Shown: one piece after another, positions 1 to 62,700 of the stretch
Layout: every line of letters begins with the position of its first letter
Position numbering within the stretch: the first letter of the stretch is position 1
Assembly (NCBI GenBank): GCA_903879915.1
Contig: CAIRNJ010000061.1
Span: 1-62,700 of the forward strand
Source of the DNA: an uncultured Elusimicrobia bacterium
Lineage (GTDB): Bacteria; Elusimicrobiota; Elusimicrobia; Elusimicrobiales; UBA9959
Direction: 5' to 3'
Length of the DNA stretch: 62,700 nt
The notes under the pieces: generated by a model
What the model saw: the letters and a program-made list of their open reading frames with translations, nothing else
Databases searched by the model: none
Told to the model about the DNA's origin: nothing
Position numbers and translations under genes: made by a program

Positions 1-175
1 ACCCGGTAGCGTAAACGCCTTGAACGGAGGGATGTCGTAACGGATTTTAGATAAAAATATGCCACAAAACTGTGGGCAGGGAACTTTTTTCTTAAAAAAT
101 GACCCTCTAATGAGCGACAGGCCTTTGTCGGGTTGGTCTGCTATACTTTAACAGGGAATTGCTATAATTTTTACA
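1..175. other. Upstream region of glnS, no gene seen
   Basis: No convincing coding frame is visible. A small hairpin (CCACA/TGTGG near 62-74) followed by a T-run near 85-92 may be the terminator of a gene that ends before the window. The right end carries the glnS promoter boxes described separately. Confidence 0.4.
139..168 (+). promoter_or_regulatory. Tandem extended -10 boxes before glnS
   Basis: Two extended -10 motifs are visible: TGCTATACT at 139-147 and TGCTATAAT at 160-168. The second ends 7 nt before the ATG at 176, so initiation there would give a leaderless or nearly leaderless mRNA. No good -35 box or Shine-Dalgarno sequence is present, which fits extended -10 promoters. Confidence 0.5.
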
Positions 176-62505: not shown

Positions 62506-62540
62506 CGGTAAAATTATGAGCGGAAAACGCCCCGATAATC

Positions 62541-62622
62541 ATATAGAGGGTCCCCTCCCGTAGTTTGTAACATTGCTTTGTCTAAGAAGCAGTTGCAAAC
62601 AGCTAAGGAGGGGACTTATATG
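62541..62622 (+). ncRNA. Structured RNA leader of the IS110 element; hairpin hides the transposase RBS
   Basis: Nested stems: GTCCCCTCC (62550-62558) with GGAGGGGAC (62607-62615), GTTTGTAAC (62563-62571) with GTTGCAAAC (62592-62600), and TGCTT (62574-62578) with AAGCA (62587-62591). The GGAGG ribosome-binding site of the transposase lies inside the outer stem. The position, left of an IS110 transposase, matches where IS110 elements encode bridge RNA, but the guide loops cannot be assigned. Confidence 0.55.
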
Positions 62623-62700
62623 AAATTATACGCGGCAATTGACCTGCATGCAAACAATAGCGTGCTGGTAGTACTCAATGAGAAGGACCGGGTAGTGCTG
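62620..62700 (+). CDS. IS110-family transposase, 5' part only
   Basis: The first 27 residues, MKLYAAIDLHANNSVLVVLN onward, match the start of IS110 DEDD transposases; the Asp of AIDLH is the first acidic catalytic residue. The gene runs off the window end. It begins 115 nt after the clostripain stop with an AAGGAGGGG ribosome-binding site. No terminal inverted repeats or target duplication are seen, as expected for IS110. Confidence 0.85.
   Translation, partial: MKLYAAIDLHANNSVLVVLNEKDRVVL

Follow-up and report, generated by a model that had tools for sequence, protein, structure and literature searches.

Among the closest described systems is ISPpu9, an element assigned to IS110/IS492, for which PMC8450116 describes, as experimentally known, a fold in the leader of the transposase gene (tnp) that buries the ribosome-binding site (RBS); when leader mutations weakened this fold, the signal of a translational fusion rose 26-fold, and the fold seems to be opened by an antisense RNA. 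The same paper names IS10, IS50, IS30 and IS200 as elements with antisense control of the transposase. ISPpu9 is the sole report of RBS burial within the IS110 superfamily that we recognised in the literature searched, and for IS1111 elements this literature, which omits most subscription journals, held no earlier report. Elements of the IS1111 group are described, in the sections of PMC11187229 and PMC11208160 available to us, as having a right end that encodes a seekRNA or bridge RNA, and the length of their subterminal inverted repeats is given there as usually 11–13 bp (PMC11187229) or 7–17 bp (PMC11208160). The recombinases of IS110 and IS1111 elements have drawn interest as tools for RNA-guided DNA insertion, and their natural expression control is little studied in those parts of the literature that were examined.

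We analysed a stretch of 62,700 nucleotides from an uncultured Elusimicrobia bacterium (contig CAIRNJ010000061.1, in the following the window), close to the right end of which a hairpin covers the SD of a transposase gene (Table 1). Our reading, to which we assign a probability of about 70%, is that this hairpin is the leader of an IS1111-type transposase mRNA and forms a lid that hides the SD and limits transposase output.

Table 1: Features of the hairpin locus and of the element carrying it (positions in the window).
Feature	Position	Strand	Basis
Right-end piece from a different copy of this element	1–114	+	repeat GACCCTCTA at 101–109
Left end of IS1111-type element to start codon, 86 nt	62534–62619	+	common to six own-genome left ends with differing outer flanks
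GATAAT, predicted -10 box of joined-ends (circle) promoter	62534–62539	+	right ends of relatives, by motif and spacing only
Left subterminal inverted repeat TAGAGGGTC	62544–62552	+	reverse complement GACCCTCTA at window 101–109 and in relatives
5' arm of hairpin (anti-SD)	62548–62558	+	fold; covariation in relatives
3' arm of hairpin with SD (GGAGG, 62607–62611)	62607–62617	+	fold; covariation in relatives
DEDD transposase, first 27 codons	62620–62700	+	relatives with 339 aa; Pfam matches for one relative
Predicted antisense promoter in first codons, TTTGCA-18-TATAAT, pointing into hairpin	62625–62654	-	consensus match 10/12

Judged from its complete relatives, which have an IS1111-type layout, the element in the window is a multicopy insertion sequence of the IS1111 type. 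As position 62700 is the end of contig C61, most of the transposase gene lies outside the window, and a Pfam search with the 27 codons inside it matched no family, so that membership in the IS110 superfamily rests on complete relatives, one of which, a close one, has a 339-aa DEDD transposase matching PF01548 and PF02371 above the cut-offs. Close relatives have a left end of ~86 nt and, as is typical of the IS1111 group, a longer non-coding region downstream of tnp of ~415 nt (541 nt in L079), and the right region of the window's own element is only partly assembled. With ~86 nt, the left end is not the long non-coding, guide-bearing one of the IS110 group. The subterminal inverted repeats known from IS1111 elements are present and measure 9 bp in the window element, which is below the usual 11–13 bp, and 9–12 bp in most close relatives. 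A repeat of CG or CGA in the target leaves the outer boundary of the left end uncertain by 2–3 nt.

Six left ends of this element, the window's included, are found in the own genome, all of them cut by contig ends, along with five right ends, all at contig tips; the element body is missing from the assembly, as are the guides of the window's own copy. The contig itself is bounded by two copies of one IS, with the right-end piece at 1–114 and the left end at 62534. The -35 box of this right-end piece reads TTAAAA, and that of the other four own right ends TTGAAA. The own copies are inserted into palindromes CCCGACA-N6-TGTCGGG or near variants, and the uninterrupted exact palindrome occurs at 13 places in the own genome (e.g. 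C101:116555 and C26:28226) versus none for the reversed pattern. A palindrome of this form lies at window 115–134, and such palindromes are often followed by a TATGCTAT-like string. The IS apparently targets this repeated palindrome. GCCTTT adjoins the own right ends, and the right-hand guide of the window's own copy would be expected to include the complementary AAAGGC. The one IS110-family gene that Pfam searches identified in the own genome is that of a 369-aa transposase (L009, C52:31500-36500), which is clearly distinct from the window's element and belongs to another one. A ~400-nt match, 64% identical, to the middle of a relative's element (L070, C94:1-700) is perhaps, by its sequence, a decayed copy.

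The 82 nt from 62541 to 62622 fold into a nested hairpin with an MFE of -38.2 kcal/mol, compared to a mean of -18.2 kcal/mol after shuffling (z -7.1, with 0 of 200 shuffles equally stable), and refolding with flanking sequence gave a z of -5.9. Its main stem pairs 62548–62558 with 62607–62617 through 11 pairs, two of them G-U, and covers GGAGGGG at 62607–62613, burying the SD at 62607–62611, and an outer extension of 4 pairs (62542–62545 with 62619–62622) extends the stem to the AUG. This fold confirms, in its place, a nested hairpin over GGAGGGG that a first-pass annotation of the window had noted. An Rfam search of the window returned three tRNAs and no match at the hairpin locus, and the loci of four relatives gave no Rfam match at E 0.1.

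Relatives were collected by two routes. A left-end search of 150 genomes matched 15, the own and 14 others, and nine complete copies with a 339-aa transposase were recovered from the matching genomes; a scan of species genomes yielded 133 relatives. The best 80 of these 133 were retained and come from Elusimicrobia, Proteobacteria, Nitrospirae, Acidobacteria, Verrucomicrobia and others, and the closest named relatives among them are Elusimicrobia MAGs. The leader analyses used 73 of the 80, leaving out L087, L105, L106, L108, L119, L123 and L128, in which the match does not start near residue 1; by the rule applied 70 of the 73 leaders have an SD and three have none. As representatives we took 46 of the 73, with less than 75% identity across the first 150 residues, and 27 of these 46 have an exact GGAGG. 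Both ends were readable by pattern in 33 elements for the junction, 32 for the guide-flank and 34 for the repeat-arm comparison. The transposase frame stops early in some relatives' copies (L038 at 123, L041 at 173, L044 at 193, L046 at 185 and L049 at 61 aa), so that decayed copies are common. A plasmid search with the 27-residue window peptide gave no match, and the same search with a relative's transposase gave 787 records, all below 60% identity.

Pairing of the SD exceeds 0.8 in 53 of the 70 relatives' leaders (median 0.998, median energy z -3.7) and is 0.8 or lower in the remaining 17, which counts against a lid there. With the upstream part shuffled the median SD pairing was still 0.74, so shuffled leaders also often pair the SD, as would be expected if a GC-rich leader simply folded fortuitously. 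Such a chance origin is nevertheless extremely improbable in view of the z of -7.1 for the window hairpin and of an arm-swap test in the 46 diverged representatives, in which own arms paired with a score of 23.1 and swapped arms with 16.0 (0 of 20,000 permutations). Each score was taken from the strongest helix that the 5' part can form with the final 24 nt; in some representatives, e.g. L089 and L115, this helix lies off the SD. The own arm beat every swap in 10 of the 46, and in six (L090, L124, L144, L145, L146, L148) at least 21 of the 45 swaps were equally good. At the three positions immediately beyond the SD, the 27 representatives with exact GGAGG have Watson-Crick pairs of three or four kinds.

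All 24 distinct left ends of close relatives that were aligned (24 of 25, L113 being excluded as too distant) have an SD pairing of at least 0.80. RNAalifold found no compensatory pairs on the MAFFT alignment of these left ends, in which one arm slides; counted without this alignment, one compensated position (L075) stands against 10 C-A mismatches. Covariation in homologous copies, proposed earlier as a check on the hairpin, is therefore evident in the distant relatives (0 of 20,000), the close copies varying little and being hardly informative. The fold, its occurrence in most relatives examined and the covariation of its arms are all seen in silico. Of the earlier proposal that the hairpin represses translation by sequestering the RBS, the sequestration is borne out by the structure and by the covariation among relatives, and we infer from it that the hairpin lowers transposase translation.

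In 22 of 34 elements, as scored by an exact-match rule that admits short repeats too, the anti-SD arm and the left subterminal repeat overlap, and this would fit an inverted repeat that acts as DNA, either as transposase binding site or as left-end cruciform, with the RNA pairing as a side effect. In the other 12 of the 34, however, the two do not overlap, and an SD helix of 8–10 bp is kept in the non-overlap lineages L091, L093-L095, L107, L111 and L120, which are among those with the arm downstream of the repeat; moreover, the partner arm sits at the SD. As the helix persists without the overlap, the lid is more than a by-product of the repeat, and we consider an explanation by DNA function unlikely.

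The first-pass annotation had also taken the hairpin for a candidate bridge RNA, and its location in the left end would indeed suit the bridge RNA of an IS110-group element as presented in the available part of PMC11208160. The comparison of guides with flanks that it had suggested was run for 32 elements and found matches to both flanks, but downstream of tnp: the right region, over its first 110 nt, matches the right flank in reverse complement (own 6.75, others' 5.23) as well as the left flank in the same sense (own 5.97, others' 4.88), with 0 of 5000 permutations in each case, although the right-flank score is merely 5 in six elements (L079, L092, L093, L094, L110, L138). Comparing the left end with the flanks in four ways gave 3453, 134, 2268 and 4896 of 5000 permutations as good, the 134 for the left flank in the same sense being a weak positive. 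Ten aligned right ends, picked from the close group to the exclusion of L079, L081 and other close copies, share a consensus of 96 pairs, 23 of them with compensatory change, and two variable stretches lie in the large loop of the stem-loop that comes first after the stop codon.

As far as sequence comparison goes, the guide-bearing RNA is a separate feature encoded downstream of the transposase and not the left hairpin, which is the layout described for IS1111 elements in the consulted sections of PMC11187229 and PMC11208160. A bridge RNA in the left end was rejected on the grounds of the layout with its short left end, the flank comparisons and the right-end fold, and that the hairpin forms even part of one is hardly credible, its location and the one weak positive notwithstanding. 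An element of the IS1111 type with its RNA on the other side is what the first-pass annotation had named as refuting its proposal, and for the bridge-RNA half this is what was observed; the link drawn earlier between RBS hiding and bridge RNA falls away in that form. A structured left end, then, need not be a guide RNA.

Joining of the ends in the circle would bring TTGA[CA] of the right end and the GATAAT-like box of the left end to a distance of 15–18 nt in the 33 elements that were selected for TTGA[CA], with an exact GATAAT in 19 of them, and the predicted +1 of this putative junction promoter is 62546. In all 34 elements compared, the predicted +1 lies at the anti-SD arm or ahead of it, so that the entire lid would be part of the mRNA made from the circle itself. 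TATAGA had been considered as the -10 of the circle, with a start inside the 5' arm that would free the SD; this was dropped because, with the GATAAT-like box at 15–18 nt from TTGA[CA], transcription would begin at the arm or ahead of it.

It could also be that the hairpin shields only against outside transcription and that the circle's promoter makes an open mRNA. IS10 and IS50, whose transposases are protected against read-in transcription, offer a precedent for this, and the SD is slightly freer in RNA crossing the joined ends (median unpaired probability 0.13). Yet it is equally buried in read-in RNA and in junction-promoter RNA (median 0.002 for both), the latter because of the start at or before the arm, and a pure shield therefore appears quite improbable. 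Freeing of the SD in RNA crossing the joined ends found no general support either, since the unpaired probability exceeds 0.5 in 3 of 33 elements, of which just L075 is not already open in another context. We take the hairpin to restrain transposase translation in general, beyond shielding it from outside RNA. By hiding the SD and touching the start codon, the lid would make ribosome starts rare and keep transposase scarce; it would act on both outside read-through RNA and RNA from the joined-ends promoter and may thereby cap transposition.

A scan of 301 bases for antisense promoters found one promoter-like site, with 0.2 (sd 0.5) expected. Its predicted TATAAT depends on TTA as the codon of Leu3, which 18 of 19 close relatives use there, against 32 TTA among the 541 other Leu codons of these genes; the bias could equally well come from early codons tending in general to be AT-rich. 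Our leading guess is that the lid would be opened by a leader antisense RNA as in ISPpu9, possibly arising from this promoter inside the first codons, and in some lineages the partner might be a round-circle RNA in which the right-end repeat takes up the anti-SD arm. That IS1111 elements possess a family-wide riboregulated leader, with the left-end repeat often doubling as anti-SD and a partner RNA opening the lid, is a tentative and rather doubtful idea. If it is true, the sequence that marks the DNA end would also set transposase output, and if round-circle RNA opens the lid, translation would be tied to the circular state.

With a conserved lid over the transposase start, the low natural levels of these recombinases would have an explanation and their expression a simple handle. 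What is new is the RBS-burying transposase leader in IS1111-type elements, often overlapping the subterminal repeat; known before is that of ISPpu9. With the IS1111 group the window element, judged together with its relatives, has in common the DEDD transposase family, the subterminal inverted repeats, a long stretch of non-coding sequence after tnp, guides for the two flanks and a promoter motif across the joined ends. It differs in the RBS burial in the left end, which is absent from the text examined of PMC11187229, where ribosome occurs once, for a cargo gene, and of PMC11208160, where rbs and ribosom occur just in unrelated passages. IS10, IS50, IS30 and IS200 likewise keep transposase translation low by RNA structure or antisense RNA, with other transposases, ends and mechanisms. 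The tnp leader of ISPpu9 with Asr9 and Ssr9, as far as described in the available text of PMC8450116, shares with the window element the RBS-burying fold, seen here in silico for the window hairpin and its relatives, and an antisense promoter in the first codons, which for the window element is predicted only. In contrast, ISPpu9 is assigned to IS110/IS492 and has a leader of 244 nt, whereas the predicted leader of the window element is ~74 nt long and its arm overlaps the left subterminal repeat.
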